The notes below the pieces were generated by a model that ran no database searches, was not told the DNA's origin, and was given only the letters and a program-made list of their open reading frames with translations. A DNA stretch of 64,000 bases from Halorussus vallis (GTDB taxonomy: Archaea > Halobacteriota > Halobacteria > Halobacteriales > Haladaptataceae), in NCBI RefSeq assembly GCF_024138165.1, contig NZ_CP100000.1:744001-808000 (forward strand), in the 5' to 3' direction. The position numbers and the translations under genes are program-made. Below are positions 43,132 through 50,110 of the stretch, piece after piece; the first letter of the stretch is position 1, and each line of letters begins with the position of its first letter.

Positions 43132-43725
43132 ATGCACGACGAGGCCCTCGCTGTACTTCGCCAAGACGACGTGATGGCACGGCTCATCGACGAACACGAC
43201 CCTTACGTCGAACAGGACTGGTCGGAGTACGAACGACTCTGTATCTCGATCATCAACCAACAGCTCTCGACCGCGTCGGCGGCGGCCGTCAGAGGCCGCG
43301 TGTTCGAACATCTGAACCACGAGGTCACTCCCGACGCTGTGCTGGAAGCGGACGAGGAGGAGCTCCGCGACGCCGGCCTGTCCGGGATGAAGATCAAGTA
43401 CATGCGGAACGCCGCGGAGGCCTTTCGGGAGTCTGACTTCTCGAGGGAGGGGTTGGCCGGCCACTCGAACGAGGAGGTCGTCGAGGAACTGACCGCCGTC
43501 AAGGGTATCGGGGAGTGGACCGCGCAGATGTACCTGCTGTTCGTGTTGGAGCGGGAGGACATCCTTCCCCTCGGAGACCTCGCCGTTCGCCGGGGTATCG
43601 AGGAGCTATACGGAAACGGTGCCGAGATGACGCGCGCCGAAATGCGGGAAATCGCAGAGCGGTGGCGACCGTATCGGTCTATCGCCACGCGGTACATCTG
43701 GGCCGATTACGAGTCCAGTAAGTGA
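43132..43725 (+). CDS. DNA-3-methyladenine glycosylase II-like (HhH-GPD)
   Basis: A 197-residue base-excision-repair glycosylase. After the helical N-terminus (LCISIINQQLSTASAAAV), the helix-hairpin-helix is VKGIGEWTAQMYLLF near residue 122. The catalytic Asp follows in LPLGDLAVRRG near 145. Lack of the four Cys of endonuclease III argues against a 4Fe-4S enzyme, so alkylbase removal (AlkA type) is most likely. ATG 43132 gives a sensible start and matches the TATA box at 43098. Confidence 0.88.
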   Translation: MHDEALAVLRQDDVMARLIDEHDPYVEQDWSEYERLCISIINQQLSTASAAAVRGRVFEHLNHEVTPDAVLEADEEELRDAGLSGMKIKYMRNAAEAFRESDFSREGLAGHSNEEVVEELTAVKGIGEWTAQMYLLFVLEREDILPLGDLAVRRGIEELYGNGAEMTRAEMREIAERWRPYRSIATRYIWADYESSK

Positions 43726-43818: not shown

Positions 43819-45177
43819 CTACTCCTCGACGTTCTCCTCCTCTTCCTCCTCGGTTTCCTCCTCCTGGTCGACGCGCTTCTGGACGTTGACCTGGTAGTGT
43901 TTGAGGATGTCCCGGCCCAGCAGGACGGGGTAGTCCATGTGGCCGCGGTCCTCGACGCTCGCGGTCACGGTGTGGCGGTTGCCGCCGACGCCGATGACCA
44001 CGTCGACGACCGGCCGGGACCGACTCGACTTGCTGGACCCCGATTTGACACGGGCGATGCTCTTGATGGGACCCGCGCCGATCTTCGCCGCGAGTTTGGT
44101 GTCGATGCTCGTCCGGGTCGCGCCGGTGTCGGACTTGGCGGTGATGGTTTCGGAACCGCTGGTACCGCTGACGATGACCTCCTCGGTGTAGCCGATGACG
44201 ACCGGTTCGGTCGGCGCGGTGTCCTCCGGAATCGGCTTGCACGCGGGTACCGAGTCGTCCAGCGAGACGGCGAGGTCCTCGACCTTCGCTTCGTCGACCG
44301 AGCCGCCGGCGCGTTCGATGGCTAACTGGGCGATGTACGGGGCGGCGCTCCGTTCCGTCGCCTTGAACAGCCCCTTGAACCCGGCCGTCGGGTTGACTTC
44401 GAGGACGTACCAGCCGTCGTGGCCCTCGATGAGGTCGACGCCGGCGTAGTCGAGGCCGATGGTTTCGGCCGCGTCGCGTGCGATGTCCGCCACCTCGCGG
44501 GGCATCGAGTCGGTGGCGTCCTCGACGTCGCCGCCCAGCGCGACGTTGGTCCGCCAGTCGTTGTCCGGCGCGTAGCGGTTCATCGCGCCGACGATGCGGT
44601 CGCCGACGACGTACACCCGGAGGTCGCGGTGGCGGCCCTCGTCGCGGTCGATGAGTTCCTGCAGGAACGCCTGGCGGTCGCCCACCCGGGGGTTGACCAG
44701 TTCGTCGGGACCGACCTTCCACGTACCGCCGCCGTGGGTGCCGATGGCGGTCTTGTAGACGGCCTCCTCGCCGAAGTCGTCGCGGCCCCGGTTCAGCTTG
44801 GAGTTCGACAGCGCCATCAGCGCGTCCGGGACCGGCAGGCCCGCCTCCGCGAGCGTGGTCGCGGCCGCGAACTTGTGGATGGCGGTCATCACCGAACTCG
44901 GCTCGTTCAACACCGGCAGTACGCCGTCGTATATCTTCGCGAGGCCGAGCGTCTCCGAGGGCTGTTCGGTGTTCGACAGCAGCAGTCGGTTCGCGACCAG
45001 GTCGACGTCGGGTTCTAACGTGACCTGACCGTCTTTGAGCCGGACCGCCGTGTTCTCCTCCCGAAGCCAGAACGGTTCGTGGCCCAGGTCCTCGATGGCG
45101 TTGAGGATGGCCTTCGTCTCCTTGCTGTTATGTAGACTGAGTACACCGATGCGCGCGGACGAACCCTCGCTGCTCAT
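43819..45177 (-). CDS. RimK-type ATP-grasp ligase fused to a RimB-like retropepsin-fold domain
   Basis: A 452-residue protein. Residues about 1-295 are an ATP-grasp ligase (TTLAEAGLPVPDALMA; AVYKTAIGTHGGGTW; DLIEGHDGWYVLEVNPTAGFKG), the family that adds glutamate to carboxyl ends. Residues about 310-440 are a RimB-like ATP-dependent zinc-protease domain with a retropepsin-like motif (KSDTGATRTSIDT) and DYPVLLGRDIL. The C-terminal tail is nearly all Glu. The true start is 45177; the longer frame is a shadow. It is divergent from the amidase at 45319. Together they suggest ligase and hydrolase acting on the same amide bond. Confidence 0.88.
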   Translation of the reverse strand: MSSEGSSARIGVLSLHNSKETKAILNAIEDLGHEPFWLREENTAVRLKDGQVTLEPDVDLVANRLLLSNTEQPSETLGLAKIYDGVLPVLNEPSSVMTAIHKFAAATTLAEAGLPVPDALMALSNSKLNRGRDDFGEEAVYKTAIGTHGGGTWKVGPDELVNPRVGDRQAFLQELIDRDEGRHRDLRVYVVGDRIVGAMNRYAPDNDWRTNVALGGDVEDATDSMPREVADIARDAAETIGLDYAGVDLIEGHDGWYVLEVNPTAGFKGLFKATERSAAPYIAQLAIERAGGSVDEAKVEDLAVSLDDSVPACKPIPEDTAPTEPVVIGYTEEVIVSGTSGSETITAKSDTGATRTSIDTKLAAKIGAGPIKSIARVKSGSSKSSRSRPVVDVVIGVGGNRHTVTASVEDRGHMDYPVLLGRDILKHYQVNVQKRVDQEEETEEEEEENVEE

Positions 45178-45203
45178 GACGTCCGTACATTCGTCGGCGT
45201 ACC

Positions 45204-45209
45204 TTAAAA
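45204..45209 (-). promoter_or_regulatory. TATA box of the ATP-grasp gene
   Basis: TTTTAA on the minus strand, centred about 30 bases before the ATG at 45177. This fits a leaderless or nearly leaderless transcript. Confidence 0.55.
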
Positions 45210-45290
45210 ATGGGAACGCCGAGAGCCGAGGGCACCTTCGGCTCTGCGTCCGACACAGAGACGACCGTGGGATGGGGTGTTGCACGAATT

Positions 45291-45296
45291 TATATA
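45291..45296 (+). promoter_or_regulatory. TATA box of the aspartoacylase-family gene
   Basis: TATATA (in TTTATATA, 45289-45296) about 26 bases before ATG 45319. It supports 45319 as start over the upstream open frame from 45277. Confidence 0.65.
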
Positions 45297-45318
45297 CCCC
45301 GATACCCGAGTGGGTGAC

Positions 45319-46374
45319 ATGGCCGGGTCTGACGAGGCGTTCACGTACAACGGCGGCATCGTCGAGCCGGGCGAAACCCAGAACATTCGCTACGGAATCA
45401 GCGAGACGTATCTCGGCGACCCCGTCCGCATCCCCGTCACCATCGTCAACGGCGCCGAGCCCGGACCGACGGTGTTCCTCACGGCGGCGGCCCACGGCGA
45501 CGAACTCAACGGCATCGAGGTCGTCCGCGAGGTCGCCCACGAGTGGAACCACGACGAACTCCGTGGCACGCTGGTCTGTATGCCCGTGCTCAACGTCCCC
45601 GGATTCCTCGCCCAGGAGCGCTACCTCCCAATCTACGACCGGGACCTGAACCGGTCGTTCCCCGGGAGGCAGGGCTCTACCAGCGCCAAGCGGATGGCCC
45701 ACCGCATCTTCCGGAACTTCATCGCGCCCTGCGACCTCGGACTCGACTTCCACACGTCCACGCGCGGGCGCACGAACATGCTACACGTGCGGGCCGACAT
45801 GACCGACCCCGACGTGGCCCGCCTCGCCAAGGCGTTCGGCTCGCACGTCGTCATCTCCTCGGAGGGACCGTCGGGGACGCTGCGCCGCGAGGCCAGCGAC
45901 TACGGCGTCCCGACCATCACCATCGAGATGGGCGAGGCCCACCGGTTCCAGCGCGAGTTCATCAACCGCGGGCTCGAAGGCGTCGAGAGCGTCCTCGCCG
46001 AATACGGCGTCCACCGCACGAACGCCGTCAAGTGGCCGGGCTGGCGGACCATCATCGACGAGGCGAAGGAGAAGACCTGGCTCCGGGCCGACGTCGGCGG
46101 ACTGGTCGAGATGCACCACGACCGGGGGTCGCTCGTCTACGAGGGTGACACCATCTGCACCATCACGAACCCGTTCAAGACCGACAGCGACAGCGTGGAG
46201 GCGCCGTTCACCGGACTACTGGTCGGCGTGCTGGAGAATCCGGTCGTCTACCCCGGCAACCCGCTCTGTCACATGGTCGAACTGACCGCCGACACCCGCC
46301 GGGCGCTCAAGCGCGAGCGCGCCCACGCCGACGAACCGAACGGCGATGTCGCCCCGCCGCCCGAGAGTCGGTAA
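45319..46374 (+). CDS. Succinylglutamate desuccinylase/aspartoacylase-family amidase
   Basis: A 351-residue zinc carboxypeptidase-fold protein of the AspA/AstE family. The zinc-binding HxxE motif is AAHGDELNGIE near residue 55, with DRDLNRSFPG near 108 and GLDFHTSTRGR near 140 carrying the next zinc His. EMGEAHRFQ near 205 holds the catalytic Glu. A C-terminal beta-rich lid follows (about 255-340). Members hydrolyse N-acyl amino acids or amide bonds. It is divergent from the RimK/RimB fusion with about 140 bases between, and they are likely functional partners. The start is fixed by the TATA box at 45291. Confidence 0.9.
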   Translation: MAGSDEAFTYNGGIVEPGETQNIRYGISETYLGDPVRIPVTIVNGAEPGPTVFLTAAAHGDELNGIEVVREVAHEWNHDELRGTLVCMPVLNVPGFLAQERYLPIYDRDLNRSFPGRQGSTSAKRMAHRIFRNFIAPCDLGLDFHTSTRGRTNMLHVRADMTDPDVARLAKAFGSHVVISSEGPSGTLRREASDYGVPTITIEMGEAHRFQREFINRGLEGVESVLAEYGVHRTNAVKWPGWRTIIDEAKEKTWLRADVGGLVEMHHDRGSLVYEGDTICTITNPFKTDSDSVEAPFTGLLVGVLENPVVYPGNPLCHMVELTADTRRALKRERAHADEPNGDVAPPPESR

Positions 46375-46612: not shown

Positions 46613-47005
46613 ATGAGTCAATCGTATAATCGAGGCCTCATCGAGGATTTCGGCCGGTGGCGGGAGTTCACGGCCGGGATGTGGGCCTGGATATTCCACA
46701 AGTTCACCGGGTGGGTACTCATCGGCTACCTCTTTACTCACATCGCCGTACTGAGTACCGCTTTCGCCGGTAGTAACGCTTACACGGACACGATCCGGGG
46801 TCTGGAGAGCCTCGCCGTCGTCCGCGTCATGGAGATCGGTCTGCTCGCGGTCGCCGTCTTCCACATCCTGAACGGCGTGCGCCTGCTGTTCGTGGACCTC
46901 GGTCTCGGCCTCGAATCGCAGGACAAGAGCTTCTACGCCTCGCTGGTCGTGACGGCGGTCATCGTGCTGGCGAGCGTCCCGACGTTCTTAGAGGGGGCGT
47001 TCTGA
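46613..47005 (+). CDS. sdhC: Succinate dehydrogenase cytochrome b subunit SdhC
   Basis: A 130-residue membrane anchor with three hydrophobic helices (about 28-48, 70-90 and 103-125). The [19 protein letters not shown] segment and [14 protein letters not shown] carry the His residues expected to bind haem b and form the quinone pocket. ATG 46613 ([10 protein letters not shown]) is chosen over the longer frame from 46580. It is the first gene of sdhCDBA, the usual haloarchaeal order, with 1 base to sdhD. Confidence 0.92.
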
Positions 47006-47006
47006 G

Positions 47007-47372
47007 ATGGCCGAACGCTACTCCTCGTTCCGGAGCGGGAGCGCCTCGTGGCTACTCCAGCGCGTGACGGCGGCGTTTCTCGTCGTCGTGCTGGCGTTCC
47101 ACTTCTTCCTGCTCCACTTCGTCCACCACGCCTCGGAGGTAACGTTCGCCGGGACGACCGCGCGCATGGAGCAGTGGGGCTACCTGCTCACGATGGTGCT
47201 GTTCCTGCTGACCGCGACGTTCCACGGCGTCAACGGCGTCTACGCCGCGCTGTTGAACCAGGGGCTGACCGGTACCGCGAAGACTGCGGTGAAGGGCGTA
47301 CTGGCGATCGCGGGCCTCGCGCTCGCCGCCCAAGGCGTCTACCTCGCGCTGTTCCTGTCCGGAGTGATGTAA
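47007..47372 (+). CDS. sdhD: Succinate dehydrogenase membrane anchor SdhD
   Basis: A 121-residue three-helix membrane anchor that completes the quinone site with SdhC. The first helix has LQRVTAAFLVVVLAFHFFLLHFVHH, rich in His near the membrane face; TATFHGVNGVYAALL resembles the paired haem-ligand region of SdhC. It begins one base after the sdhC stop and ends 4 bases before sdhB. Confidence 0.9.
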   Translation: MAERYSSFRSGSASWLLQRVTAAFLVVVLAFHFFLLHFVHHASEVTFAGTTARMEQWGYLLTMVLFLLTATFHGVNGVYAALLNQGLTGTAKTAVKGVLAIAGLALAAQGVYLALFLSGVM

Positions 47373-47376
47373 CAAC

Positions 47377-48267
47377 ATGAGTACGCAAACGCAAGAAGAA
47401 CGCGGCAAGACCGAAAGCGCAGAGCACGAGGCCGAAACCTCGGTCGAACAGGAGGACGCGTCGCACGGCGCGCAGCGTCGCGCCGACCGCGACGCCGAGC
47501 GCCGCCAGTCGGTGTCCGGCGCGCCCGCCCGACCGGAGGGCGAGACGATTCAGCTGAAGGTGTTCCGCTACGACCCCGAGGTCGAGGGGAAGATGGAACC
47601 GCGCTTCGACGACTTCTACGTCCCCAAGCGCAAGGGGATGACCGTCCTCGACGCGCTCATCTACGCCCGCGACCACTACGACACCACGCTGACGTTCCGC
47701 CACTCGTGCCGGCAGGCGGTCTGCGGTTCCGACGCGCTGTTCATCAACGGCCGCCAACGACTCGGCTGCCAGACCCAGATGTCGGACCTCGAAGCGCCGG
47801 TGCGCGTCGAACCGCTCCCCCACCAGGACGTCGTCAAGGACCTGGTGGTCGACATGGAGCACTTCTACGACCAGATGCACTCGGTCGAGCCGTTCTTCCA
47901 GCCCGACGACGCACCGCCGGGCGAACTCGACGAGTACCGCCAGACCCGCGAGAACCGCGAGAAGATCAAGATGTCCACGCGCTGTATCTGGTGCGGCGCG
48001 TGCATGTCCTCGTGTAACATCGCGGCCGGCGACAACCAGTACCTCGGGCCAGCGGCCATCAACAAGGCCTACCGCTTCGCGATGGACGAGCGCGAGGGCG
48101 ACACCAAGAAGGAGCACCGACTCAACGTGATGGACCAGGAACACGGCGTCTGGCGGTGCCAGACCCAGTTCTCCTGCACCAACGTCTGTCCGAAGGACAT
48201 CCCGCTGACCGAGCACATCCAGGAGCTCAAGCGGGAAGCGGTCAAGCAAAACCTGAAATTTTGGTGA
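47377..48267 (+). CDS. sdhB: Succinate dehydrogenase iron-sulfur subunit SdhB
   Basis: A 296-residue electron-transfer subunit. The 2Fe-2S domain has HSCRQAVCGSDALFING and GCQTQ; the Asp in CGSD is the ligand position also seen in E. coli SdhB. The C-terminal domain has CIWCGACMSSC, then CQTQFSCTNVCPKDI, for the 4Fe-4S and 3Fe-4S clusters. An acidic extension of about 50 residues precedes the conserved part, a feature of haloarchaeal proteins. It follows sdhD by 4 bases and precedes sdhA by 4 bases. Confidence 0.95.
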   Translation: MSTQTQEERGKTESAEHEAETSVEQEDASHGAQRRADRDAERRQSVSGAPARPEGETIQLKVFRYDPEVEGKMEPRFDDFYVPKRKGMTVLDALIYARDHYDTTLTFRHSCRQAVCGSDALFINGRQRLGCQTQMSDLEAPVRVEPLPHQDVVKDLVVDMEHFYDQMHSVEPFFQPDDAPPGELDEYRQTRENREKIKMSTRCIWCGACMSSCNIAAGDNQYLGPAAINKAYRFAMDEREGDTKKEHRLNVMDQEHGVWRCQTQFSCTNVCPKDIPLTEHIQELKREAVKQNLKFW

Positions 48268-48271
48268 GAAC

Positions 48272-50110
48272 ATGCACGAACACGACGTTCTGGTAATCGG
48301 CGGCGGCGGCGCCGGCCTCCGGGCGGCCATCGCGGCCCACGAGGAGGGCGCCGACGTGGCCATCGTGACGAAACTCCACCCGGTGCGAAGTCACACGGGC
48401 GCGGCCGAGGGCGGCATCAACGCGGCGCTTCGCGACGGCGACGACTGGGAACTGCACGCCTACGACACGATGAAGGGGTCGGACTACCTCGGCGACGCCC
48501 CGGCCATCGAGACGCTGGCACAGGACAGCCCCGAGGAAACCGTCCAACTCGAGCACTGGGGGATGCCCTTCTCCCGCGAGGACGACGGTCGGGTGTCCCA
48601 GCGACCGTTCGGCGGCCTCTCGTTCCCCCGCACCACCTACGCGGGCGCCGAAACCGGCCACCACCTGCTGCACACGATGTACGAGCAGGTCGTCAAGCGC
48701 GGCATCCAGGTGTACGACGAGTGGTACGTCACCCGCCTCGCCGTGACGAACGAGGACGACCCCGACGACCGGCAGTGTCACGGCATCGTCGCCTACGACA
48801 TCAAGACCGGCCAGATAGAGGGCTTCAAGGCGCGAAACGGCGTCATCCTCGCGACCGGCGGCCTCGGCCAGGTGTACGACCACACCACCAACGCGGTCGC
48901 CAACACCGGCGACGGCGCGGCGATGGCCTACCGCGCGGGCGTCCCGCTGGAGGACATGGAGTTCATCCAGTTCCACCCGACCACGCTTCCCTCGACCGGC
49001 GTCCTCATCTCCGAGGGCGTCCGCGGCGAGGGCGGCATCCTCTACAACGAGCAGGGCGAGCGGTTCATGTTCGAGTACGGCTACGCGAACAACGCCGGCG
49101 AACTCGCCTCCCGCGACGTGGTTTCGCGGGCCGAGCTCACCGAGATCAACGCGGGCCGCGGCGTCGACGACGAGTACGTCTACCTCGACATGCGCCACCT
49201 CGGCGAGGAGCGCATCACCGACCGCCTGGAGAACATCCTCCACCTCGCGCGCGACTTCGAGGGCGTCAACGGACTCGAAGAGCCGATGCCGGTCAAGCCC
49301 GGCCAGCACTACGCCATGGGCGGCGTCGAGGTCGACGAACACGGCCAGACCTGCATCGACGGCCTCTACGCCGCCGGCGAGTGCGCCTGCGTGTCGGTCC
49401 ACGGCTCGAACCGCCTCGGCGGCAACGCGTTGCCCGAACTCATCGTCTTCGGCGCCCGCGCGGGCCGCCACGCCGCCGGCACCGACCTCGGCGAACCGCA
49501 GATTCAGACCGGCGGCTCGGCCGACACCGAGGCCGAGGAGGACCTCGAGACACCCGTCGAACCCGGCGCGGTCCGGACGAGCGACGAGGACGCCGTTGCC
49601 GACGGCGGCGCCGCCGTGACCACGCCCGACGAGACGGTCAGGAGCGCGGTCGAAGCCGAGCGCACCCGCGTCGAGGGACTGCTGGAGAAGGACACCGGCA
49701 TCCAGCAGGCCGAACTCCGCGCGCGCCTCCAGAAGTCGATGACCGAGAACGTCAACGTCTTCCGGAACGAGGACGGCCTCAAACAGGCGCTTCGCGACAT
49801 TCGCGAAGTGCGCGAGTCGCTCCAGGACGTCTACGTCAACGACCCCTCGCGGACGTTCAACACCGACCTCATCCACACCATCGAGATGCGCAACCTCGTC
49901 GACCTCGCGGAGGCCATCACGCTCGGCGCGCTGGCCCGCGACGAGTTCCGCGGCGCCCACTGGCGCCAGGAACACCAGGAGCGCAAGGACGACGAGTGGC
50001 TCAAGCACACGATGCTGTCGTGGAACGACGGCACGCCGGAGCTCTACTACAAGCCGGTCATCCTCGAAGGCGAGGACGGCGAGTACGAGCCGAAAGAGCG
50101 CAGTTACTGA
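48272..50110 (+). CDS. sdhA: Succinate dehydrogenase flavoprotein SdhA
   Basis: A 612-residue catalytic subunit that oxidises succinate to fumarate with covalently bound FAD. The FAD motif is VIGGGGAGLRAAIAAHEEG near residue 8 and the flavin-linking His lies in VRSHTGAAEGGINA near 45. Active-site segments include HPTTLPSTGVLI, and HGSNRLGGNALPELIVFG near 383. An acidic linker of about 45 residues (roughly 408-455) lies before the C-terminal helical domain and is less conserved. A T-run follows the stop at 50118. It is the last gene of the operon. Confidence 0.97.
   Translation: MHEHDVLVIGGGGAGLRAAIAAHEEGADVAIVTKLHPVRSHTGAAEGGINAALRDGDDWELHAYDTMKGSDYLGDAPAIETLAQDSPEETVQLEHWGMPFSREDDGRVSQRPFGGLSFPRTTYAGAETGHHLLHTMYEQVVKRGIQVYDEWYVTRLAVTNEDDPDDRQCHGIVAYDIKTGQIEGFKARNGVILATGGLGQVYDHTTNAVANTGDGAAMAYRAGVPLEDMEFIQFHPTTLPSTGVLISEGVRGEGGILYNEQGERFMFEYGYANNAGELASRDVVSRAELTEINAGRGVDDEYVYLDMRHLGEERITDRLENILHLARDFEGVNGLEEPMPVKPGQHYAMGGVEVDEHGQTCIDGLYAAGECACVSVHGSNRLGGNALPELIVFGARAGRHAAGTDLGEPQIQTGGSADTEAEEDLETPVEPGAVRTSDEDAVADGGAAVTTPDETVRSAVEAERTRVEGLLEKDTGIQQAELRARLQKSMTENVNVFRNEDGLKQALRDIREVRESLQDVYVNDPSRTFNTDLIHTIEMRNLVDLAEAITLGALARDEFRGAHWRQEHQERKDDEWLKHTMLSWNDGTPELYYKPVILEGEDGEYEPKERSY

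Follow-up and report, generated by a model that had tools for sequence, protein, structure and literature searches.

We found that two divergent genes of the haloarchaeon Halorussus vallis, one encoding a RimK-family ATP-grasp ligase fused to a RimB/RloA-type retropepsin and the other a zinc amidase of the AspA/AstE family, probably constitute one three-step module that makes, cuts and hydrolyses chains of alpha-linked glutamate; we put the probability of this reading at roughly 55%. It draws, at the level of sequence, on the domains of the two proteins, their invariant catalytic residues, their co-occurrence and co-loss in haloarchaea, an equivalent operon that crosses domains of life, and a conserved C-terminal tail. 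The genes lie in a stretch of 64,000 nucleotides, hereafter the window, whose relevant features are as follows.

43132..43725, plus strand: flanking DNA glycosylase-like gene (identity assigned by eye), recurring beside the fusion across haloarchaea
43819..45177, minus strand: RimKB fusion gene (ATG at 45177, stop at 43819, 452 aa), RimK-family ATP-grasp ligase plus RimB/RloA-type retropepsin
45203..45210, minus strand: TATA-like box of the fusion gene, TTTTTAAG, read from the sequence
45289..45296, plus strand: TATA-like box of the amidase gene, TTTATATA, and most relatives have a similar one at -27 to -30
45319..46374, plus strand: AspA/AstE-family zinc amidase gene (ATG at 45319, 351 aa; PF24827)
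46679..50110, plus strand: flanking sdhCDBA (succinate dehydrogenase operon), directly downstream of the amidase and still present in genomes without the pair

The divergent arrangement described in an earlier note on this DNA was confirmed, with 141 bp from start to start; the GTG at 45277 given in the list of open reading frames lies upstream of the likely amidase start at ATG 45319. A TATA-like box precedes each ATG by about 26-30 nt and is well conserved among relatives for the amidase and more weakly for the fusion. This spacing fits leaderless transcripts at both genes, and the promoters are predicted to be leaderless, as the same note had proposed.

The fusion protein carries two catalytic domains and an acidic tail.

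44311..45150, minus strand: ATP-grasp ligase domain, residues 10-289 (TIGR00768; Foldseek matches to LysX/ArgX and RimK)
43867..44214, minus strand: retropepsin-like domain, residues 322-437 (PF05618; profile-profile match to operon RimB)
44119..44130, minus strand: retropepsin active-site motif D350-T-G-A353, invariant in 26/26 haloarchaeal sequences
43822..43866, minus strand: acidic tail ending in Glu-Glu (EEEEEENVEE), examined for conservation of its last residues among relatives

The ligase belongs to the RimK family by its Pfam RimK match at residues 102-279 (E 4.9e-22, 78.9 bits, cut-off 21) and by the whole-protein score against TIGR00768, which lies just above the curated cut-off (145.7 vs 143.4 bits); several relatives score just under it. 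Residues D248, E260 and N262 are invariant in the haloarchaeal alignment. The score against the S6 glutamate ligase equivalog NF007764 was 63.3 bits, with a cut-off of 331. In the tree, the haloarchaeal ligases form a clade of their own (support 100/100), outside a separate clade (99/99) that unites E. coli RimK with the RimKs of bacterial and methanogen operons, and they are joined to LysX with weak support (87/45). LysX/ArgX was also the best Foldseek match. The AU test rejected none of the placements nearest RimK, LysX or MptN (p 0.50-0.53), and we therefore dropped the idea that the haloarchaeal ligase was recruited independently. Because the NF007764 score is far below its cut-off and the ligase falls outside the S6-RimK clade, glutamate is not certain to be the donor, and LysX-like or MptN-like donors are possible on the sequence evidence. 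PF01250, the family of bS6, is absent from the window genome; S6, the known bacterial target of RimK, thus cannot be the target here, the ligase not being an S6-RimK equivalog either. Haloarchaea also encode a third RimK-family paralogue (contig C1, 2952782-2953393, in the window genome), which reached no equivalog cut-off; the best score of the window genome's copy was 110 bits, to TIGR00768.

The retropepsin domain matches PF05618, the RimB/RloA family, at residues 371-436 (E 3.2e-9, 37.3 bits, cut-off 27). Alignment of profiles by hhalign to the operon RimBs described below extended over the whole domain (93.4% probability, E 2.4e-7, 114 columns), whereas BLASTP of the domain against Salinivibrio RimB found nothing. 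None of 26 fusion proteins matched the RimB equivalog NF052261 at E 0.01, and the operon RimBs of Salinivibrio and Methanosarcinaceae, at 127-135 bits, are also under its cut-off of 200. AlphaFold gave no usable model of this part (pLDDT about 30-45), so the homology of the domain rests on profiles. A separate archaeal group of retropepsins with weaker PF05618 matches (profile 25-138) occurs in Methanosarcinaceae and a related family; neither rimK nor an amidase gene was found near six such loci.

The amidase matches AstE_AspA_cat (PF24827) with E 1.5e-49 and 168.6 bits (cut-off 25); a search with PF04952, which models a different, short part of the amidase family, gave no match. Its putative catalytic residues, whose roles are assigned by analogy to AspA, are the following.

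45493..45504, plus strand: zinc-ligand motif H59-G-D-E62, invariant in 27 haloarchaeal and 10 cross-domain sequences
45751-45753, plus strand: third zinc ligand H145, invariant
45925-45927, plus strand: catalytic Glu E203, invariant

N111 and R112 are invariant as well. The equivalog cut-offs of DoeB (97.8 vs 402.7) and AstE (23.9 vs 305.7) were both missed by far. The nearest solved relatives are DoeB-type deacetylases, and the Foldseek matches of the predicted model included DoeB-type enzymes, the cyanophycin dipeptide hydrolase CphZ and carboxypeptidases. In the amidase tree the haloarchaeal and the operon enzymes make up two separate clades, both set apart from bacterial DoeB; on the operon side there are also long-branched haloarchaeal DoeB-like sequences and Legionella, with exact relations that are unsure. 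On a plasmid of Natrinema versiforme an amidase paralogue adjoins two cation:proton antiporters and TrkA-domain genes.

We looked for both genes in 242 haloarchaeal genomes, counting presence at E below 1e-100. A full-length homologue of the fusion was present in 221 genomes and an orthologue of the amidase in 224: 221 genomes had both genes, 18 neither, three the amidase only, and none the fusion only (Fisher 2e-24, a value that overstates independence since the genomes are related, losses within genera being the better measure). In at least six genera, some members have lost both genes and the rest retain both. All three amidase-only genomes contain decayed fragments of the fusion gene, which suggests that the ligase was lost first and recently, with the amidase to follow. 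The absence of any genome with the ligase and without the amidase is what would be expected if the amidase clears the products of ligase and protease. The earlier note had named lack of conservation of the pair as a ground for rejecting its proposal; the pair is conserved, and this objection fails.

The glycosylase-like gene, the fusion, the amidase and sdhCDBA form a block of conserved order, so adjacency by itself is weak evidence, and a single deletion could explain some of the joint losses. Three observations argue against this being the whole story. In one haloarchaeal family, GNAT and flippase-like genes are inserted between fusion and amidase; one genome of this family (G052) has lost fusion and amidase alike but retains the intervening GNAT and flippase genes, so that two deletions, not one, were needed. 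At least seven genomes keep both genes unlinked. Finally, the divergent pair also occurs on a Halolamina plasmid, well away from the sdh locus. A pair on a Haladaptatus plasmid was not counted as a second relocated copy, as its amidase belongs to the DoeB-like haloarchaeal type. The plasmid of Haladaptatus pallidirubidus encodes a diverged second fusion (58% identity) near a DoeB-like amidase and a gene of the glutamate-cysteine ligase family.

Outside haloarchaea, the closest amidases are mostly encoded in rimB-rimK-amidase operons, in Vibrionaceae, Marinobacter, Rhodobacterales, one cyanobacterium and Methanosarcinaceae; the best bacterial matches (37% identity over 91%) directly adjoin rimK. 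The three genes abut in the order rimB-rimK-amidase in Salinivibrio, Phaeobacter and the cyanobacterium Acaryochloris, and two Vibrio plasmids have the order rimK-amidase-rimB. Among 83 bacterial and archaeal loci centred on the amidase, rimK was near in 54 and rimB in 48, with rimK not near in 29; as these loci were chosen by amidase similarity and many are close relatives (Marinobacter above all), the fractions are not population estimates. In Methanosarcinaceae all 10 loci with a strong RimB are rimB-rimK-amidase operons. Operons of this family are of the bacterial type and their RimK falls inside the canonical RimK clade, which suggests that they were acquired from bacteria. The haloarchaeal set may have one origin with the operons or may have been assembled separately. 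At two loci second RimB-like genes adjoin complete rimB-rimK-amidase operons. Of the 54 loci with rimK, 21 have a mechanosensitive-channel gene nearby, vs one of the 29 without it; MscS-type channels and MgtE/CorA/ZntB (magnesium or CorA-type) transporters recur beside the bacterial operons, a hint of an ion or osmotic function.

The earlier note had suggested that the Glu-rich C-terminus of the ligase may itself be a target, and this idea gained support. The fusion ends in Glu-Glu in 29 of 36 relatives vs 2 of 459 other predicted genes from the same regions, and in a final Glu in 35 of 36 vs 57 of 459. In a wider set of 63 fusions the final residue is Glu in 90%, and about three quarters end in Glu-Glu. 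The last two tail positions are 83% Glu, the remaining tail 27%, while Asp falls from 17% in the remaining tail to 0.8% at these two positions. With Glu enriched and Asp nearly gone at the very end, general acidity is not the explanation. S6, the known acceptor of RimK, likewise has a C-terminal Glu in the two species for which it is shown (PMC11957791). We infer, as the simplest interpretation of these patterns, that the fusion's own C-terminus would act as the acceptor of its ligase. In the same work RimB cuts glutamate runs at least 5-6 residues long and, both in vitro and in vivo, stimulates RimK in its synthesis of poly-alpha-glutamate (PMC11957791). At least five consecutive Glu are encoded in 23 of the 63 tails, so in most cases the tail as encoded would need to be lengthened before it could serve as a substrate.

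From these data we infer glutamate as the substrate, a polymer, self-acceptance and an order of steps. The ATP-grasp domain would first add glutamates singly, with ATP, to a C-terminal glutamate acceptor, the likeliest acceptor or primer being the fusion's own conserved Glu-Glu tail. The fused retropepsin would then make internal cuts in glutamate runs; it may also stimulate the ligase, in the way that RimB acts on RimK, and such stimulation gives a reason for a fusion. The zinc amidase would finally take the last, free-carboxylate amino acid off the short pieces and return glutamate, much as CphZ, acting after CphB, hydrolyses the dipeptides left from cyanophycin (pathway in PMC12661447). The general proposal of the earlier note, a ligase that adds and two hydrolases that remove amino acids, thus gains from the co-occurrence, the co-loss and the operons of distant bacteria and methanogens, the activities themselves being predicted. 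For the amidase, the last step of chain breakdown is a more economical role than the trimming of a protein tail. Against the three-step module we counted the NF007764 score, the position of the ligase clade, the missing RimB equivalog match, the small acylated amino acid on which DoeB, the amidase's closest relative of solved structure, acts, the syntenic block, and the 29 of 83 loci where rimK is not near.

The alternative that survives best, albeit as an unlikely one, is the model of the earlier note, in which the ligase adds glutamate to the C-terminus of at least one other protein of the cell and both hydrolases shorten that tail, with no free polymer, comparable to the tubulin TTLL ligases and CCP carboxypeptidases. 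The AspA/AstE enzymes share the carboxypeptidase fold, in line with the carboxypeptidases among the structural matches, and in Pseudomonas RimK glutamylates S6 and RimB trims it (PMC11957791). However, bS6 is missing from the window genome, our analysis brought up no candidate target protein, and RpsF of P. fluorescens was not glutamylated by the Desulfotalea RimBK hybrid (PMC11957791).

It is more doubtful still that the fusion works as in a LysX/ArgX-like carrier pathway, attaching an amino acid other than glutamate to its own C-terminal glutamate as a built-in carrier from which the amidase releases a small-molecule product. The Foldseek match and the tree placement noted above point this way, and carriers of the LysW type also present a C-terminal Glu. 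The support for LysX is weak, however, with the grouping with RimK not rejected (p 0.50); such a pathway would leave the retropepsin without a function, the neighbourhood of the haloarchaeal pair shows no recurring biosynthetic genes, and in the corresponding bacterial trios RimK is of the S6 type. Least probable of all is that the two genes are unrelated neighbours, the amidase acting on free N-acyl amino acids in the manner of DoeB or AstE and the pair persisting through the conserved block beside sdhCDBA: the block is real and the nearest solved relatives are DoeB-type, but sdhB is kept in all 19 checked genomes without the fusion or the pair, both genes were lost around retained ones in G052 and both retained when unlinked, unrelated bacteria and methanogens show the same link, and the DoeB and AstE scores are far too low.

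Returning to the make-cut-hydrolyse module, we suggest, speculatively and against the odds as they stand, that a dedicated poly-alpha-glutamate cycle, primed in haloarchaea by the C-terminus of the ligase, operates in haloarchaea, in some methanogens and in many marine bacteria and provides an adjustable intracellular polyanion for ion and osmotic balance, with the aspartoacylase-family enzyme as the missing recycling step; the link to ion or osmotic balance would follow from the neighbouring genes in bacteria. If true, this would be a second prokaryotic amino-acid polymer cycle with a cyanophycin-like layout, overlooked under the annotation 'succinylglutamate desuccinylase'.

RimK without S6 is an open puzzle, with genomes lacking rpsF and a hybrid of unassigned substrate (PMC11957791). 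Our finding supplies a nearly universal haloarchaeal case of a RimK-family ligase without S6, in hosts that are amenable to genetics. It also extends the RimK/RimB system, in bacteria and archaea alike, by a third conserved enzyme, and it names a specific candidate acceptor, the enzyme's own Glu-Glu tail. The amidase is probably a newly recognised third partner, as it goes unnamed in the RimK/RimB papers examined. In the literature examined we found no paper linking RimK to an aspartoacylase-family enzyme or succinylglutamate desuccinylase; a genomic survey of amidoligases (Iyer et al. 2009, Mol BioSyst) may have noted the RimK-amidase gene neighbourhood.

Compared with known systems, the amidase shares its fold and zinc-site residues with DoeB, AstE and aspartoacylase and differs from them in scoring below each curated cut-off and in its gene context. 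The CphA/CphB/CphZ system of cyanophycin has the same plan, with an ATP-grasp polymerase, a polymer-cutting peptidase and a dipeptide hydrolase of the AspA/AstE fold; its polymer, however, consists of Asp and Arg, its ligase is related only distantly, and CphB is not a retropepsin. RloA-RloB-RloC of P. aeruginosa likewise encodes a polyglutamate-cutting retropepsin with an ATP-grasp protein and is linked to hypoosmotic stress, but the protease is secreted, the partner is a transglutaminase-like membrane protein, and there is no amidase (PMC12239564). RimK-RimB (RimABK) of Pseudomonas also combines a RimK-superfamily ATP-grasp ligase with a retropepsin that cuts glutamate runs (PMC11957791, PMC7343187), whereas the haloarchaeal set is fused, belongs to an archaeon without bS6, has a diverged ligase and includes the amidase as a third conserved partner. 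A RimB-RimK hybrid with both domains in one polypeptide is already known from bacteria, the only organisms covered by that survey (Desulfotalea, Rhodobacterales and Flavobacteriales; PMC11957791); there RimB is N-terminal, while the haloarchaeal fusion has the opposite order, with a C-terminal retropepsin followed by the acidic Glu-Glu tail. The rimB-rimK-amidase operons unite the same three activities, with amidases of one family (33-37% identity), but as separate genes and with a RimK of the canonical S6 type.
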